NCBI GenBank assembly: GCA_004376575.1
Contig: SOJN01000022.1
Span: 1-47,855 of the forward strand
Length of the DNA stretch: 47,855 nucleotides
Origin: a candidate division TA06 bacterium
Lineage (GTDB): Bacteria > Hydrothermota > DG-26 > E44-bin18
Direction of reading: 5' to 3'
Below are positions 2,765-42,106 of the stretch, piece after piece. How positions within the stretch are numbered: position 1 is the stretch's first letter; each line of letters begins with the position of its first letter. Both the position numbers and the translations under genes were made by a program. The notes below the pieces were generated by a model. That model searched no databases, was not told where the DNA came from, and worked only from the letters and a program-made list of their open reading frames with translations.

Positions 2765-3431
2765 TTCACCCTCCAATCCATCAGATTGCTTATTCTACAG
2801 GGGTAGTTTCCCGCTGCGCCTCTCCTGTATGGTAGCAGGTTTCCTGATATTTGCAACCCATTTTGTGAAAGAATGTGCTATATTTGGTGTCGGTTCGCAT
2901 TGAGCTCAAAAACTGTCGTGGTGCGTTTCGCCTACTTTTGAAGTTAGCCCCTGAGCCTTGACAATCCTGGTCTCAGGCTATCTCACCAATATCATCTTCT
3001 TTATATTCACAAAGCCTTGGGTGTCGAGTCGGCAAAAGTATATGCCGCTAGTGAGGGTTTCAGGAGACCATTGGGATCAGTCTGTGTGTGTGTCGCCCTA
3101 TTCCGCGCGATATTGAACTTTTTGCCGCGCCGCGAAATCAGCTATGCTGAGCCGTGCCAATTACTATCAGGCCGATAGATACCACCTCACAAATTGGATA
3201 ATATGTTCTTGAGAAATAGTTGTCAAGACCTGTTCGGACAAATACGTCACTGGCGTGGATGGAGAAGACCGAAGCAGCTCAACTCTTAGGACCCCCAATG
3301 GATTGCCATGCCATGGTTCACTTTAGCCGTTGCTCCTCGCAACAGCAACCTTTTTCTTGGAGGGTGCAGCAGGAGAGTGATGTAATCAATTATCTAACGC
3401 GTCTTTAGGAGAGACCCAACTGTTAGAGGGG
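2765..3431. other. Gene-free gap of about 670 bp with remnants of the neighbouring gene
   Basis: No open reading frame here looks real. The only recognisable content is the decayed sorting-domain/FG-GAP remnant annotated separately. Nothing identifiable was seen from 3161 to 3431. The 5' region of the FG-GAP gene (2765-2960, minus strand) has no convincing -35/-10 pair. Confidence 0.5.
2978..3160 (-). pseudogene. Remnant of a paralogous FG-GAP/sorting-domain gene
   Basis: Positions 2978-3073 match 119-214 (the last 31 codons plus stop of the FG-GAP gene) at 93 of 96 bases and still encode '...SGIYFCRLDTQGFVNIKKMILVR' with its stop. Two of the three differences change an amino acid (Ala to Thr, Tyr to Cys); one is silent. 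Homology ends abruptly at 3074. A second short similarity, about 3135-3160, resembles the FG-GAP coding segment at about 1797-1824 but with a base deleted and an in-frame stop. The simplest reading is a former paralog or tandem duplicate, mostly deleted, or the scar of recombination between sorting domains. No functional product is expected. Confidence 0.7.
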
Positions 3432-4073
3432 TCACGTTTGCGGTGTGACCCCGCGAATCTTTCGATAGATAGTCCATAGTATGGGTGAGAGAAACAGCGA
3501 TGCCAGTCCTTTCCAGCCTCTTCTGAGGGGCTTGGTCTGTTTGACTCTTTTGACAAATCTTTCCATAACATCTTCCGGTAGCGGCCCCTTGAAACCTATT
3601 CCAACAACGGTATGAGGGAGGCAGGCTGCTCCACCGAAGTCAACAAATGATGAAGCAAAGGGCTTCAAGAGACTTCTGAATGCCTCTGGCGTGAAGCGCC
3701 AGTAGTCGTATGGATGGTCATGTATGGGGAAGTACATGACAGAACTGATTACAACAATTCCATCGGACTTGAGGATTCTATGAGCTTCTTCAATAGCCTT
3801 TCTCGGGGATTCGACATGCTCGAGTGTATCGAGAATGAGGGCAGTTCCAACCGACTCTGAAGGAAGATCTATATGATGGAGGTCCAGAATGACATCTACA
3901 CCTGGCCCCTCTCGCATATCGGAACCAACATATTCCTTATCCGGGAAGAGTGGCCGAAGATCTGCAAGGCCTTCCTGGCCGGGTACTTGAAGGGCGCCAA
4001 ATTCATAGATAGGTTCAGAGATAGGCAATGTTTCAGCAACGAGCTTAACAAACCGTTTGATTGATCCACGCAC
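3432..4073 (-). CDS. Class I SAM-dependent methyltransferase (Methyltransf_11 type)
   Basis: 213 aa, soluble, no signal peptide. A divergent motif I region (YEFGALQVPGQ near residues 23-33) is followed by an acidic strand end (VGSDMREGPGVDVILDLHHI) and the post-I segment ALILDTLEHVESPRKAIEEAHRILKSDG, typical of Methyltransf_11 proteins. 'HDHPYDYWRFTPEAF' (about 118-132) is the usual substrate-side loop of methyltransferases found in glycan or lipid clusters. It starts at GTG (4073-4071) with GGAGGTGA eight bases upstream. The substrate is unknown; a sugar, lipid or small quinone-like acceptor is possible. It stands alone between two remnants (the FG-GAP copy and the broken moxR). Confidence 0.85.
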   Translation of the reverse strand: MRGSIKRFVKLVAETLPISEPIYEFGALQVPGQEGLADLRPLFPDKEYVGSDMREGPGVDVILDLHHIDLPSESVGTALILDTLEHVESPRKAIEEAHRILKSDGIVVISSVMYFPIHDHPYDYWRFTPEAFRSLLKPFASSFVDFGGAACLPHTVVGIGFKGPLPEDVMERFVKRVKQTKPLRRGWKGLASLFLSPILWTIYRKIRGVTPQT

Positions 4074-4512
4074 AGCGCTTTCACCTCCTGAGTTGGATGC
4101 GACAGTATCTAGCGTTCAGGCTTCATTCTAAATCGAAAATCCTGGAAAGAGGCTGTTGGATGAGACCTTTACGCACCTACTACGGAGTTTCAATAGGATG
4201 ATTTCCTCGTACTTGAATTATATCGAGCACAAGTCTAGTTGTCCACTGCAAACAATCAGTTGACCATGTTTGAATATAAGAAGTCTCTGAGCATTCCACC
4301 TTAGTTCTTAACCTTGATGAGGTCTTTGCCGTGTAATAGAATGAACGCATACGGAAAAGAGGCAGAGAGGAAACAAAGACCGCAAAAGGCGCTGAGTGGC
4401 CGCTTTTTTTGGCTTTGCAGCTTCTGGACAAGGTCGCATTCTGAACGCGGAACATTGACGTCCTCAGCTCGTCCATAAATAGCAGGACATTTCACAGCAA
4501 GGAGGAATGAAA
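4074..4512. other. Intergenic region between divergent methyltransferase and moxR remnant
   Basis: About 440 bp with no supported gene. It should hold the promoters of both divergent neighbours. On the plus strand TTGACG at 4455-4460 is a fair -35 candidate, but the A/T-rich block after it (4474-4481) is too close for a confident -10, so no promoter is called. The moxR ribosome binding site (AAGGAGGA, about 4499-4506) is at its right edge. Confidence 0.4.
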
Positions 4513-36685: not shown

Positions 36686-36966
36686 GTCCCAAATTCCTGA
36701 GAAATCGGGAGCGGCCTCAAAAGTCAAATTCTGGAACCGCAGATTTCACACCCTCCTTCGCTTCCTACTTCGCCATATTTGGCTATGTAGGACTGACGCT
36801 TTCGAGCTACGAAGGACAAGGATTTTCACAAGATTCTTTATTTATGGCTTTGTCATAGGATCATCGCTGCCTGCGTTAATCTTGTGCTCTGGGGACGGTG
36901 CCCTCCCAAAACCCGAAGGATCTTCGACTTGACATTTTGCCTATCCCACCATGCGAAAACTCCTGT

Positions 36967-37067
36967 AACCACAGATTACACAGATTTTCACAAGATTATT
37001 TTTCTCGTTCGGGTTCAGCCATGAGGATGTGTTTTGAATCTGTGTTAATCTCGTCTAATCTCGTGGT
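36967..37067. repeat. Imperfect inverted repeat of 'accacagattacacag' type
   Basis: The left arm, about 36967-36998 (AACCACAGATTACACAGATT...), and the right arm, about 37034-37067 (...AATCTGTGTTAATCTCG...GTGGTT), are inverse copies with several mismatches and a loop of about 35 bp. Single arms of the same family occur at about 36825-36845 and 36872-36880. Confidence 0.55.
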
Positions 37068-37370: not shown

Positions 37371-37553
37371 ATGGGAAGAATTTTATTGTCAGATTACGAC
37401 GTTACTAAACTCTGGAGCACGGTGGTCGATCCACGCCCCCCCTGGTCGAATAAATACAGGGGACTGAGCATTTACGAAAGAGAGATCAAGACACCCGACG
37501 AACAGCACGCTGAGCTGGGCTTGCTTGTCGGGAATGGCGCAAAAAAGAATTAG
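37371..37553 (+). CDS. Weak hypothetical ORF (60 aa)
   Basis: MGRILLSDYDVTKLWSTVVD starts a 60-codon frame; it ends 'VGNGAKKN'. A GGATAGG lies 8-9 bases upstream of the ATG. Codon use is not obviously different from real genes, but there is no recognisable domain and it lies alone in a repeat-rich gap. It may be a fragment of a decayed gene or chance. Confidence 0.2.
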   Translation: MGRILLSDYDVTKLWSTVVDPRPPWSNKYRGLSIYEREIKTPDEQHAELGLLVGNGAKKN

Positions 37554-37710
37554 GAAACCAACAGGGCAGCCAGGGAAGACCACACCGTAGACCACAGCCC
37601 CGTTTGGGCCACAGGGTTTCTGTCAGAAAAGAGAGCTTATGGAAGCTGCTTTGCTCGCCGCAAGCATTGGAATGTTCACGCTCCCCGCTCAATATCGGAA
37701 CCCCAATTCT

Positions 37711-37737
37711 TTCCTCCCCTTTGACAAGGGGGAGGAA
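37711..37737. repeat. Perfect nine-bp-stem hairpin
   Basis: TTCCTCCCC (37711-37719) and GGGGAGGAA (37729-37737) with a nine-base loop. Followed by AATAAAAGG rather than a T-run, so it is a repeat of the common 'cctcccc..aaggggga' class rather than a terminator. Confidence 0.5.
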
Positions 37738-37785
37738 TAAAAGGAGAGGGATGCACAAGATTCAGGATTTGGGCGGCTGATGGGC

Positions 37786-37814
37786 TTGACACAACCACCC
37801 TTCCTTGATATAAA
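37786..37814 (+). promoter_or_regulatory. Sigma70-type promoter of the micro-ORF/lipoprotein operon
   Basis: TTGACA (37786-37791), a 17-bp spacer and TATAAA (37809-37814). The predicted start near 37822 lies about 47 bases before the first micro-ORF. A strong match. Confidence 0.7.
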
Positions 37815-37868
37815 TTACTCGGGTGTCTCTTGGGAAGCAGATTGCGGGCGGATGCAGAGCGTCGAAAG

Positions 37869-37997
37869 ATGAAACCTTTATTCCCAGCATTGAGAGAAGA
37901 ACTGACAGGTATCTGTGAGCCTGACCGCATTCCCTCGATTAGAGCAACAGTGCGCCATTTCGCAAGGGGTCTGGACACGTTCAGGCAATCATCATGA
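37869..37997 (+). CDS. 42-aa micro-ORF, first in the lipoprotein operon
   Basis: It begins MKPLFPALREELTGICEPDR and ends 'HFARGLDTFRQSS'. The composition is that of a soluble, basic helical peptide; no family recognised. Its stop (TGA 37995-37997) overlaps the ATG of the next frame (ATGA), and the promoter at 37786-37814 is well placed for it. The ribosome binding site is poor (GAAAG right before the ATG). It could be a leader peptide that couples translation to the downstream genes, a real small protein, or a fragment of a lost gene. Confidence 0.35.
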   Translation: MKPLFPALREELTGICEPDRIPSIRATVRHFARGLDTFRQSS

Positions 37998-38154
37998 AGA
38001 GACGTACTCAAGGCAGGTGCCTCTTCGGAGCGATTTTGCTCCTTGCATCCCTCGTTGCCGGCTCCTCGCTGGCTCAGGCCGGGTTTAGGAAGAGCTATGG
38101 TGGCCGTGGGTGGGACGAGTTGCTAGATGTCGCAGTCAAGGAGATAACATGGTA
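37994..38154 (+). CDS. 53-aa secreted fragment: signal peptide plus start of an SVQQT-type repeat protein
   Basis: MKRRTQGRCLFGAILLLASL begins a clear signal peptide ending near 'GSSLAQA'. The mature part 'FRKSYGGRGWDELLDVAVKE' matches the opening of the YGG...S-V-Q repeat found in the two paralogs at 40115-44232 ('FEKTYGEDIDCYFGRAVQQT'). It then stops at TAG 38152-38154. It is therefore probably the truncated 5' end of a third paralog. Its end contains AAGGAG (38138-38143), the ribosome binding site of the next gene, whose ATG (38149) overlaps the stop (ATGGTAG). It follows the 42-aa frame by a four-base overlap. It may still be translated as a coupling peptide. Confidence 0.5.
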
Positions 38155-39303
38155 GAAAGAAGGTCATTGTTGCTCCGGTCCTGCATCCTCCTCCTGTCGG
38201 CATTGGCAATTGGCTGCCACAGCAAGGGGCTTCCCGAAGGCTTTGATCTCAAGGACACGATACTTTTCACCGCATATCAGCGGCACACAGGCTGGACTAC
38301 TTCTAAGGACTACAAAGAAATATTCTTAATAACGTCCAGCGGAGATACTCCTCCGATACTGATAACAGATAACCGTCACGAAGAGGTGGCTCCCATCTGG
38401 CTTTCCGATGGGGAGAACATTGTTTTCTTGAGGCATAGAGGGAGAATTGAGGAACCGGAGAAAGACATATACTTGAAGAATCTGGCGACCGGCAGTGAGC
38501 GGCGCGTCATCAGAGCGGATCTAGAACGCAAGGATATAGGTTTCTGGAAGATCAACTTCTTTGAAAGCATTTCCTCTGGACCTAACAAGACCTTGTTTTT
38601 TCAAAGAGGCGGTTCTCTCTACCAAGCTAGCCAGACTGGACAGACGATCGAAAAGCTGTTCGACTTAAGAGATTTGGGACTCACCTATAAGTGTGGCGGA
38701 TTCATACAGCCAATATCGGACCCTTCGGCGTCTGCCGATGGACTTGCTGTCGTCTTCATTTCTCAGAATGGGAAGCGCATTGACAGTGTAATATCTTCCG
38801 CAATTCCTCAACATTTGCCTCCGGTAGTCAGAAGAGCAAAAGCTAATGATATGGCCCGGAAGATGAAAGAAGTGAGCCTCGCCAACACGGATGGGTCAGA
38901 TTTCAAAGTCCTGACGGATGACTTTTTCCCCGACTATGAGCCGGTCTTATCTCCTGATGGACGATACATCTGCTACGTGTCTGAGAGAACTCCGTATGCA
39001 GCTACGCAGAACACTGTGCCGACACCCGAGCATTTCGACGGAGCCGGGCAAGTAGTCACCCGAGAAACGGGCAATTTCGACATATACGTGATGGACATTA
39101 GTGGAGACAACGTGAGGAGGCTTACTACTGAGCGTTCTAAAGATGTACAGCCTAGCTGGTCACCCGACGGAACACAAATAGCCTTTGTGTCTGACAGAAG
39201 TGGGATAGCTCAGATCTGGGTTATGAATGCCGATGGCACCGACCAGCACCCGCTGACCCGTGGGGATCGGGTTTGTAGCAGTCCTTGTTGGTCACCAAGG
39301 TAG
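38149..39303 (+). CDS. Lipoprotein with TolB-like WD40 (PD40) propeller
   Basis: 384 aa. The type II signal peptide has lipobox LAIGC with Cys23. Repeats of the PD40/TolB type include 'HEEVAPIWLSDGENIVFLRH', 'YEPVLSPDGRYICYVSERTP', 'DVQPSWSPDGTQIAFVSDRS' and 'DQHPLTRGDRVCSSPCWSPR' at the end. Such propellers bind other proteins or peptides at the cell surface or in the periplasm. ATG 38149 has AAGGAG six bases upstream; the 13-codon in-frame extension upstream (from 38110) is rejected. The C-terminus ends just after a blade, without a sorting domain; an orphan sorting domain remnant lies immediately downstream (39304-39708), so the gene may have lost its last part. Confidence 0.85.
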   Translation: MVERRSLLLRSCILLLSALAIGCHSKGLPEGFDLKDTILFTAYQRHTGWTTSKDYKEIFLITSSGDTPPILITDNRHEEVAPIWLSDGENIVFLRHRGRIEEPEKDIYLKNLATGSERRVIRADLERKDIGFWKINFFESISSGPNKTLFFQRGGSLYQASQTGQTIEKLFDLRDLGLTYKCGGFIQPISDPSASADGLAVVFISQNGKRIDSVISSAIPQHLPPVVRRAKANDMARKMKEVSLANTDGSDFKVLTDDFFPDYEPVLSPDGRYICYVSERTPYAATQNTVPTPEHFDGAGQVVTRETGNFDIYVMDISGDNVRRLTTERSKDVQPSWSPDGTQIAFVSDRSGIAQIWVMNADGTDQHPLTRGDRVCSSPCWSPR

Positions 39304-39708
39304 GAATTGAGCGGCGCATAAGAGTCAAACCGCCCAGTCCGGGTCTGAAGAGAATGGTTGACTTCCCGACATTTACAATTGCGATGGCGGATGGGGTCTC
39401 AAAATGTGACCGCAATGCATCGCGCCGCAGGCAAACGGCCGTCAATCCGCGCTTTCCCCAGCCCATTCCGCCACTCCACAACAATTGAACTCTTGAACGT
39501 TGATCCTTTGCTCGATCATGTTGTGGGTGTGTACGATGTAGCCGGCAGACTAGTAACTAAACTCCCACTCTCAAACGGCAACACAATCTGGACCGCCAAC
39601 AACCATCCCGCCGGCATCTACTTCCTGAAACTAAAGGCCGACACCCATTCCCCTTCGACTTCGCTCAGGATCTACGACCCAACGACCAGACTCCTGAAAC
39701 TGGAATAG
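39304..39708 (+). pseudogene. Orphan C-terminal sorting-domain remnant
   Basis: One reading frame (best from about 39430) reads 'FPSPFRHSTTIELLNVD', 'VVGVYDVAGRLVTKL' and 'NHPAGIYFLKLKAD', the standard sorting-domain order (PNPF-ST-IEL, VYD..GR.V, PAGIYFLKL). The preceding sequence is in another frame ('VNPRFPQPIPPLHNN'), so a frameshift is likely. Near the end 'SPSTSLRIYDP' interrupts the usual 'KKM.L.R' ending; this is encoded by 'CTTCGACTTCGCTCAGG', a common intergenic repeat word. There is no start or signal peptide of its own. It could be the detached end of the lipoprotein upstream or the tail of the truncated paralog at 37994. Confidence 0.55.
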
Positions 39709-39743: not shown

Positions 39744-39799
39744 ATAGACAGTGCTCAGCCCTAAGCACTGTCTATTTCACTTTTGCGCAAAAGTGAAAT
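39744..39799. repeat. Two abutting perfect palindromes, TTTCACTTTTGC family copy 1
   Basis: ATAGACAGTGCT (39744-39755) and AGCACTGTCTAT (39764-39775) form a perfect 12-bp stem with an eight-base loop. It overlaps by two bases a 26-nt perfect palindrome (39774-39799) with half-site ATTTCACTTTTGC. The second is the core of the repeat family also found at 39855, 44377 and 46996. This copy lacks the conserved downstream part (GCATATTCCCGGG...). Confidence 0.75.
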
Positions 39800-39854: not shown

Positions 39855-39960
39855 GTTCTATTTCGGTTTTGCGCAAAAGTGAAATAGAACAGCATTTGCA
39901 TATTCCCGGGAATTCGAAAATGCGCAAGTGTGCAAATGCGCGAATGTGAGAATGTGGAAA
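39855..39960. repeat. TTTCACTTTTGC-family intergenic element, copy 2
   Basis: A 36-nt palindrome (39855-39890) with half-site GTTCTATTTC..TTTTGC and two mismatched pairs. It is followed by the conserved tail AGCATTTGCATATTCCCGGG (39891-39910), AATTCGAAAATGC, and an AATGYGCAARTG-like degenerate run to about 39960. Same order of parts as copies 3 and 4. Confidence 0.75.
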
Positions 39961-40114: not shown

Positions 40115-42106
40115 GTGAGAAGAACTTACCTTGTAGTACTTCTTCTGGCTGGGATTTTTCTGTCTGCATTTGTTCTGCCGGTTGCCTCCCCGGGTGTAAT
40201 CACATTTGAGAAGACATACGGGGAGGACATTGACTGTTACTTCGGCCGAGCTGTCCAGCAGACTTCAGACGGCGGTTACGTAGTTGCAGGATTCTGGCAG
40301 TATGGACTGTTCGGCGACATCGGCCCGCTCTTGTTCAAGACAGACTCTCTGGGGAATAGACGATGGTGGCAGGCTATCAAGCCTCTTTTTGACAATGTCG
40401 CTAACTCTGTCCAGCAGACCTTTGACGGTGGATATATCGTTGGCACCATGTTTGGTATGACAAAGACAGACGCTGTAGGCCGAGAGGTCTGGACTAGAGG
40501 ATACGGCAGTAGCGTTCGCTCTGTTCGGCAGACGTCGGGCGGCGGGTATATCGCTGCGGGGGGTTATCTTTTGATGACCGATGCGGTGGGGAACCTGCTC
40601 TGGGCAAGGGACTACGGCGATATAGGTTTTTCCGTCCTGCAGACCTGGGACGAAGGATATGTCATGGCTGGATACAAAGATGATCAAGTCTACCTGGTGA
40701 AGGCCGACCATCATGGTGACAGTCTCTGGGCAAGGACGTACGGAACTGGCACAGGTTACTCTGTCTGGGAGACCTTGGATAGCGGGTATGTAATCGGAGG
40801 GGTGACCGGCGAAGACATGTATTTGGTTAAGACAAACTCGTTGGGTGAGAGTCTGTGGACAAGAACCTACGGTGGTACCGGTCGTGATTACGCTTACTCG
40901 GTCCAGCAGACTTCGGATGGGGGGTACATCCTTGCGGGAAGGACGGATTCATTTACTCCGGGCTATCGCGCTTACCTTGTAAAGACAGACTCATTGGGTT
41001 ACATTCTATGGACAAGGCTGTATGGGGGTAGTTCATGGACCGACGGTTTCTGTGCCCAGCAAACCTCTGACGGCGGGTATGTAATTGTAGGAGACAAGGA
41101 CTGCGGTGCATATCTTATAAAGACAGATGAGGAGGGAGGACTGAGGACGGATGCGGGGGTCGTGACTCTGGATGCTCCCGGGGACACAGTGTTGTCGGAC
41201 TCAATCTGTGCTGTTGTGGCAACTGTTAGGAACTTTGGTGTTACTTCCGTAACCTTTGATGTGATTGCACGTATCGACTCGTTGTCGTCGGACGGTTACG
41301 AGGACACCGTTCAAGTGGAAGATCTTCCTCCGGATTCCTCAGTGGAGGTCGTGTTCAAGGATTGGCACGTACCTCCCACCGACTCTACGATCTATGAGAT
41401 GGTTGTGTGCACTGCGGTTCCTCAGGATTGGGACACAAGCAATGACTGTCGGTCGAAATCTATCTTTGCCTATCATGTGACATACCGGGATGCGGGAGTA
41501 GTCTCTGTTGATTCCCCAGGGGATACGGTCTTTATAGACTCACTTTACCCGGTTATTGCGACCGTACAGAACTTCGGGAACATAGCCATAGACTTCGACG
41601 TGGTCGCTTTTATCGATGGATATGACGATAGAATCAGCGTGGAAGGTCTTGCGGTAGGTTCAACAATTCAGGTGACGTTCAGGGATTGGCAGGTCCCTCT
41701 GGCCGACTCTACTACCTACAGGATGGCGATCTGCACTGTACTTCCTCATGATAGTGATACCAGTAACGACTGCAGCTACAAGTCAATCTTTGCCTACAAT
41801 CTGATTGGAATGCAAGAGGGAGTTAAGCACGGATTACAGGCTGCAGATTACAGATTGGAACAGAATGACCCGAATCCGCTTCGTGGTTCGACTGTAATGG
41901 GCTATTCCCTGCCTGCGGCTGTCCCTGTAAGTCTAAAGGTCTATGACATGGCCGGGAGACTGATTGAGATTCTTGTAGATGAAAACCAGGAGTCGGGGAC
42001 TTACCGAATAAGGTGGCAGGCAAAGGACAGGCCGGCTGGTATCTATTTCTACCGTCTTCAGGCCGGGAACTTCGTGGACATGAAGAAGATGACGGTTGTT
42101 CACTAG
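40115..42106 (+). CDS. Secreted YGG/SVQQTSDGGY-repeat protein with sorting domain, paralog 1
   Basis: 663 aa. Signal peptide MRRTYLVVLLLAGIFLSAFV. Residues about 30-345 are seven or eight propeller-like repeats, each with '(T/R)YGG', 'SVQQTSDGGYI(L/V)AG' and 'YLVKTDSLG..LWTR'. Two CARDB-like domains follow ('DAGVVSVDSPGDTVFIDSLY', 'VIATVQNFGNIAIDFDVVAF', 'TTYRMAICTVLPHDSDTSND'). The end is a sorting domain ('LEQNDPNPLRGSTVMGYSLP', 'VYDMAGRLIEILVDENQ', 'PAGIYFYRLQAGNFVDMKKM'). GTG 40115 has GGGGGA five bases upstream; a TTGACA at 40026-40031 lacks a good -10. Probably exported across both membranes and held at the surface; the ligand is unknown. The paralog 42142-44232 follows. Confidence 0.9.
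   Translation: MRRTYLVVLLLAGIFLSAFVLPVASPGVITFEKTYGEDIDCYFGRAVQQTSDGGYVVAGFWQYGLFGDIGPLLFKTDSLGNRRWWQAIKPLFDNVANSVQQTFDGGYIVGTMFGMTKTDAVGREVWTRGYGSSVRSVRQTSGGGYIAAGGYLLMTDAVGNLLWARDYGDIGFSVLQTWDEGYVMAGYKDDQVYLVKADHHGDSLWARTYGTGTGYSVWETLDSGYVIGGVTGEDMYLVKTNSLGESLWTRTYGGTGRDYAYSVQQTSDGGYILAGRTDSFTPGYRAYLVKTDSLGYILWTRLYGGSSWTDGFCAQQTSDGGYVIVGDKDCGAYLIKTDEEGGLRTDAGVVTLDAPGDTVLSDSICAVVATVRNFGVTSVTFDVIARIDSLSSDGYEDTVQVEDLPPDSSVEVVFKDWHVPPTDSTIYEMVVCTAVPQDWDTSNDCRSKSIFAYHVTYRDAGVVSVDSPGDTVFIDSLYPVIATVQNFGNIAIDFDVVAFIDGYDDRISVEGLAVGSTIQVTFRDWQVPLADSTTYRMAICTVLPHDSDTSNDCSYKSIFAYNLIGMQEGVKHGLQAADYRLEQNDPNPLRGSTVMGYSLPAAVPVSLKVYDMAGRLIEILVDENQESGTYRIRWQAKDRPAGIYFYRLQAGNFVDMKKMTVVH

Follow-up and report, generated by a model that had tools for sequence, protein, structure and literature searches.

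Among the closest described systems are the orphan Rhs modules of Salmonella LT2, for which the excerpted text of one report describes core fragments, variable tails following DPxG and small partner genes, together with recombination that makes fusions (PMC3967940). As to the partners, the part of a 2012 survey available to us states that immunity proteins of the propeller type had not yet been found at that time, and it includes Imm65 as a lipobox-bearing immunity family (PMC3482391); one predicted propeller immunity protein has been reported since then, PefE, again as given in an excerpt (PMC5714391). In the literature searched, we found no description of a pair consisting of an Rhs gene and a PD40 lipoprotein, and nothing relevant on Rhs toxins of WOR-3 or on translational coupling with Rhs immunity. 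We describe here a locus at which such a pair appears to have left a trace.

Promoter-like site, overlapping frames and lipoprotein

The window, namely the whole stretch of 47,855 nucleotides that was analyzed, is contig C22 of a draft genome of 3.0 Mb in 150 contigs. The features of the locus are as follows.

37717-37791, + strand: dispersed intergenic repeat, one copy, with a TTGACA hexamer at its end (own-genome DNA match)
37786-37814, + strand: promoter-like site, TTGACA-N17-TATAAA (sequence match)
37872-37997, + strand: ORF1, 41 aa and stop (open reading frame; probably no working gene)
37994-38155, + strand: ORF2, 53 aa and stop, chimeric leader frame as judged from sequence comparisons
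38030-38131, + strand: front of ORF2, a signal-peptide-like stretch and FRKSYGGRGWDE...V, assigned to the start of a YGG-repeat protein (paralog alignment, tblastn)
38108-38155, + strand: rear of ORF2, GWDELLDVAVKEITW and stop, assigned to the 3' end of an Rhs C-terminal tail gene (match to G024)
38138-38143, + strand: AAGGAG inside ORF2, likely ribosome-binding site of the lipoprotein gene (sequence)
38149-39303, + strand: intact PD40 (TolB-like propeller) lipoprotein, 384 aa (PD40, G024 homolog, structure model)
39439-39708, + strand: relic of a C-terminal sorting domain from a secreted protein of the YGG/CARDB type (PF18962, 29.1 bits with a cut-off of 27; tblastn E 2e-9)

The sequence-only reading had pointed out a promoter, two micro-ORFs overlapping in a cascade and a TolB-like lipoprotein as the third member, and these elements were all confirmed at the positions listed. 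The promoter-like site is the sole match to TTGACA-17-TATAAA with zero mismatches in the window, far above chance expectation, since shuffled sequences are expected to give 0.24 matches with one mismatch or fewer. A standard promoter scan of the window called no promoter at 37786-37814 because the scan requires the -10 hexamer to end in T. The repeat carrying the TTGACA hexamer has an 88% identical copy in the same genome (G000:C26:3600-3673), which likewise terminates in TTGACA, and weaker copies at C26:1965-2023 and C51:164-201. An inverted repeat at 37711-37737 overlaps this dispersed repeat. When the region 37700-38300 was searched against the DNA of its own genome, the dispersed repeat was the sole match, and therefore neither parent of ORF2, explained below, is recognizable at the DNA level. 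Farther upstream, within a gene-poor stretch of 1.2 kb, the motif ACA(A/C)(G/A)GATTTTCACAAGATT is repeated at 36816-37001.

The two overlaps are exact: ATGA at 37994-37997 between ORF1 and ORF2, and ATGGTAG at 38149-38155 between ORF2 and the lipoprotein gene, whose likely ribosome-binding site lies inside ORF2. This layout is compatible with the translational coupling that had been suggested. Of the 485 ATGA sites in the window, 21 close a frame that opens with ATG and has at least 41 codons, and the ORF1/ORF2 overlap by itself is thus roughly a 4% event; the ATGGTAG overlap is not a chance occurrence, because it is common to the relative G024.

The codon usage of ORF1 is that of a spurious frame (5% of 294 gene windows have a score this low, and 41% of 380 spurious frames one this high), and the frame has no Pfam match. 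Its positions 37920-37979 resemble a CARDB segment of the YGG/CARDB gene in the window at 11 of 20 residues, which none of 2000 shuffles reached; among 449 natural frames two reach the score, one being ORF1 itself by construction, and the match was found post hoc, with E 0.003 among 67 tblastn queries. We give this CARDB-like stretch of 20 residues moderate weight, and ORF1 may be a relic of a CARDB domain. As an independent small gene ORF1 was rejected, on the basis that the weak match in the YGG/CARDB gene is its only own-genome relative and that Pfam gives none; ORF1 is probably not a working gene.

The lipoprotein contains three PD40 stretches, and its signal, read by eye, has a lipobox cysteine (...LSALAIGC23) that is invariant in all four homologs. 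It is predicted to fold as a TolB-like propeller: the structure model has a pLDDT of 76.5, and its top PDB match is TolB (TM about 0.59) at 15-17% identity. The score against the TolB equivalog is 123 bits, with a cut-off of 343, and therefore the protein is not TolB by score. Among 60 genomes one full-length relative was found, in G024, with 51% identity. A GTG start at 38110, giving 397 aa, was rejected because the start used in the relative is the ATG preceded by a ribosome-binding site and the extension scores -0.28 over 13 codons, a non-coding score.

The lipoprotein is surrounded by decay, with ORF1 on one side and the sorting-domain relic on the other; this relic stands free, without a gene, in the interval that separates the lipoprotein from the next YGG gene. 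Intact YGG/CARDB genes follow 3' of it at 40115 and 42013. Two near-identical copies of 29 nt (39771-39799 and 39857-39888), nearly palindromic with the core TTTTGCGCAAAA, precede the YGG gene at 40115.

Two parents of the second frame

In contrast to ORF1, the codon usage of ORF2 is gene-like (47% of the 294 gene windows score as low, and 5.8% of the 380 spurious frames as high). Its front segment FRKSYGGRGWDELLDV, compared with FEKTYGGADWDEGHSV of a paralog on contig C62 of the same genome, is identical at 9 of 16 residues, a score equalled by 0 of 20,000 shuffles and by just one other of 56,077 peptides of the window, itself a YGG repeat. In tblastn comparisons of the front with YGG frames, E values were 7e-5 to 1e-4, and the similarity spans about the first 42 residues. 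Many YGG repeats and a C-terminal sorting domain characterize the secreted proteins of this type, and ORF2 has the start only; its C-terminal half matches most YGG paralogs poorly.

The rear of ORF2 points to another origin. Aligned without gaps from the stop, GWDELLDVAVKEITW is identical at 7 of 15 residues to GWDKLVGEAKEDIKW, the end of an Rhs tail gene in G024, and this match ranks first of the 1293 stop-ended frames of the window under all eight settings, including those that leave off 2 or 5 residues at the end and that with residues 43-51 alone. Part of the match (AAGGAG, TGGTAG and the MV start of the lipoprotein) is imposed by the start signals of the lipoprotein gene, and upstream of this part the DNA agrees modestly (21 of 45 bases, a level that 224 of 95,620 positions reach). 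The match being short and partly constrained, the assignment of the rear therefore rests on the protein similarity and the neighbourhood in relatives rather than on a long alignment, and the rear has diverged from every relative found. Residues W-D-E are compatible with both the YGG and the Rhs parents, and likely mark the junction.

On these comparisons, ORF2 is a chimera of the start of a YGG-repeat protein and the end of an Rhs tail; the sequence relations themselves are seen directly. The view that ORF2 is the 5' stump of a YGG paralog thus holds for its front and not for its last 15 residues or so, which match the C-terminus of an Rhs tail. The window contains no Rhs core, and about 15 codons match the tail end. 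A tblastn search for Rhs remnants 5' of ORF2 with 67 Rhs/YGG frames, some of which are duplicates from overlapping loci, gave scattered weak Rhs matches, the best with E 0.004 at 37471-37584.

Rhs tails beside the lipoprotein in related genomes

We examined the locus in relatives, i.e., genomes of a phylum taken to be WOR-3, 147 of which form the phylum set. In G024 (record JAGMEZ010000397.1), a frame with an Rhs core (TIGR03696, 77.3 bits) lies immediately 5' of the lipoprotein gene on the same strand; it terminates in KYKEKGWDKLVGEAKEDIKW and stop, overlapping the lipoprotein gene by the identical ATGGTAG. An N-terminal profile of the lipoprotein found 5 of the 147 genomes at E 1e-10, and a wider profile found the same five among 390 relatives: the genome of the window, G099, G024, G114 and G122. 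In all three relatives with upstream DNA (G024, G114 and G122), a homologous Rhs tail abuts the lipoprotein gene on the same strand; the contig of G099 begins too late to include it, and the fifth is the window with its remnant. In G122 the tail ends an Rhs protein of 1438 aa, so that an Rhs core followed by a variable tail is present in this genome and in G024; the contig of G114 begins within the tail gene, and a core would lie beyond the end of this contig. Conversely, a profile of the tail found 3 of the 147 genomes, each time adjoining the lipoprotein, which is a strict co-occurrence of the lipoprotein with one tail family. The partner thus comes directly after the tail, and in the window it follows the tail remnant with the overlap of G024.

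The linkage and the overlap are direct observations. The abutting gene is an Rhs C-terminal tail in all three cases; the ATGGTAG overlap is kept in G024, and the junctions in the other relatives abut or overlap differently. This tail is absent from the genome of the window, in which we found one short unrelated Rhs core, and no close relative shows an intermediate state of Rhs loss. The tail family has no Pfam match, its sequence matches in PDB are unconvincing (best E 0.24), and its structure model, with a pLDDT of 48.6, is unusable.

Rhs cores occur at 55 places in 24 of the 147 genomes. When two running off a contig and five without a frame of at least 80 aa starting between -120 and +400 nt were excluded, the gene after the Rhs stop has a possible start between -45 and +50 nt at 39 of the remaining 48 places, and 41 of the 48 partners have a hydrophobic segment (19 of 29 window genes serve as a weak control), counts resting on mechanical frames, not on a gene finder. 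Rhs genes of this phylum are as a rule tightly coupled to the gene that follows, and after other Rhs genes the slot is taken by different partners.

PD40 lipoproteins are not confined to a single kind of tail: on contig C214 of G114, the tail at 3375-4217 is followed by a different PD40 protein. This second kind of tail (L069:3375-5375 with its lipoprotein) has a metallopeptidase-like motif, HELVHATE, noticed by eye, and contig C227 of the same genome looks like a second copy of the pair. The C214 locus as a whole (L069:1-5538) strings together Rhs-core fragments, tails and lipoproteins, and its tails gave no Pfam domain match. At 2281-2868 a second copy of a tail, named amidase-like by eye, carries a fused lipoprotein-type signal; this is a precedent for signal-to-tail fusions. 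A small contig of G024 (C331, L030) has two Rhs-core fragments that differ in their tails, and genes for membrane proteins or lipoproteins come after each.

Reading of the locus and likeness to known systems

We regard it as probable that an Rhs-tail/partner module lost its Rhs part inside a YGG array and left an orphan partner, probably an immunity lipoprotein. In an alternative reading, ORF2 is nothing but the 5' stump of a YGG paralog running by chance into the lipoprotein start, with no Rhs history in this genome; the match of residues of about 10-46 to YGG starts agrees with this, and W-D-E and V46 fit as well. We judge this improbable, because Rhs tails precede the lipoprotein in every informative relative (3 of 3), residues 43-51 alone still come at the top of the 1293 frames, and the C-terminal half fits most YGG paralogs poorly. 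An assembly error of the metagenome bin, conceivable in a draft of 150 contigs where a chimera unites two gene families, is very improbable indeed, as frame, overlap and gene-like codon usage are all kept at the junction and the rear has diverged from all relatives found.

Exact overlaps, a good promoter and the gene-like codon usage of ORF2 would also be expected if the micro-ORFs were selected coupled leaders, or functional small peptides, setting the output of the lipoprotein. The spurious-like codon usage of ORF1 speaks against this, as does the finding that the front of ORF2 has its matches in the phylum mainly at the beginnings of long frames of the YGG type, with no conserved small gene among the 40 of 147 genomes having a match to ORF2 at E 1; moreover, the spacing of Rhs genes and partners in relatives accounts for the tight overlap, and we hold such leaders to be quite improbable. 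The analysis gave no evidence of a function for small peptides from these frames, and none against their being made. A different question is what the lipoprotein does. It might be an accessory or surface-binding factor exported together with the Rhs protein and not an immunity protein, considering that TolB-like propellers bind proteins and peptides (the PDB matches include TolB with colicin peptides) and that the tail family lacks a recognized toxin domain. This is rather unlikely in our view, because the lipoprotein sits in the partner position behind the tail and is linked to a single tail family, and the same slot holds other partners after other Rhs genes of the phylum.

Returning to the loss of an Rhs part from a tail/partner module, we infer the following order of events. 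In the ancestor, an Rhs-core gene with its tail would have stood directly 5' of the lipoprotein gene, with the ribosome-binding site and the ATGGTAG start of the latter contained in its final codons. The Rhs gene would then have been lost, except for about 15 codons, within an array of genes for YGG-repeat secreted proteins; the CARDB-like stretch of ORF1, the sorting-domain relic and the YGG genes place the Rhs-derived module within or beside pieces of YGG-type genes. An in-frame fusion of the stump with the first part of a YGG gene would have given ORF2, and the promoter-like site at the end of the dispersed repeat now lies upstream of it. Ribosomes finishing ORF2 at TGGTAG might re-initiate on the lipoprotein start or help to open it, and this start has what seems a good ribosome-binding site of its own. 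Because the Rhs tails of relatives abut the lipoprotein gene and the Rhs spacing is tight, the ORF2/lipoprotein overlap appears inherited and not a newly built leader; the Rhs-like last 15 or so residues carry both the ribosome-binding site and the overlap, and the coupling therefore most likely derives from the Rhs/partner pair. The proposal of a decayed paralog reused as a coupled leader is retained as far as decay is concerned, and not for the source of the coupling.

On the basis of its partner slot, its exclusive linkage to one tail and its envelope location, we propose that the lipoprotein is an orphan immunity protein; the exported TolB-like propeller would most likely act against an Rhs tail delivered by neighbours. 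We put forward only tentatively the wider suggestion that PD40 propeller lipoproteins constitute an envelope-side family of immunity proteins against Rhs tails in WOR-3, represented here by an orphan with a promoter at a repeat end and a hybrid leader from two families. The cascade of micro-ORFs is most plausibly a fossil, ordinary as regulation and of some interest as a trace of an Rhs/PD40-lipoprotein pair. A cascade of overlapping micro-ORFs can thus be the fossil of a lost Rhs/partner pair and not a regulatory invention, and a candidate family of propeller immunity proteins is indicated in an uncultured phylum.

Compared with known systems, the lipoprotein resembles TolB (PDB 1c5k and others) in predicted fold and PD40 blades, and differs from it in the identity and equivalog score given above and in the Rhs neighbourhood of its relatives. 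PefE of Proteus mirabilis, in the excerpt at hand, is likewise an immunity protein predicted as a bladed beta-propeller (PMC5714391); PefE belongs to the T6SS pef operon, and its likeness to the lipoprotein of the window is one of predicted fold. With the orphan immunity genes of the Serratia Rhs NADase, as far as the excerpted report describes them, the locus shares a partner kept without its effector (PMC10539506), the immunity function being putative in the window. The likeness to the orphan Rhs modules of Salmonella LT2, within the excerpts of that report, lies in the Rhs-core fragments, the variable tails and one partner gene for each (PMC3967940), and the chain on contig C214 of G114 resembles the orphan Rhs arrays described there (PMC3967940). 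In the WOR-3 loci described here, by contrast, the partners are propeller lipoproteins and the toxicity of the tails is putative, and in the window only about 15 codons of the tail are kept.
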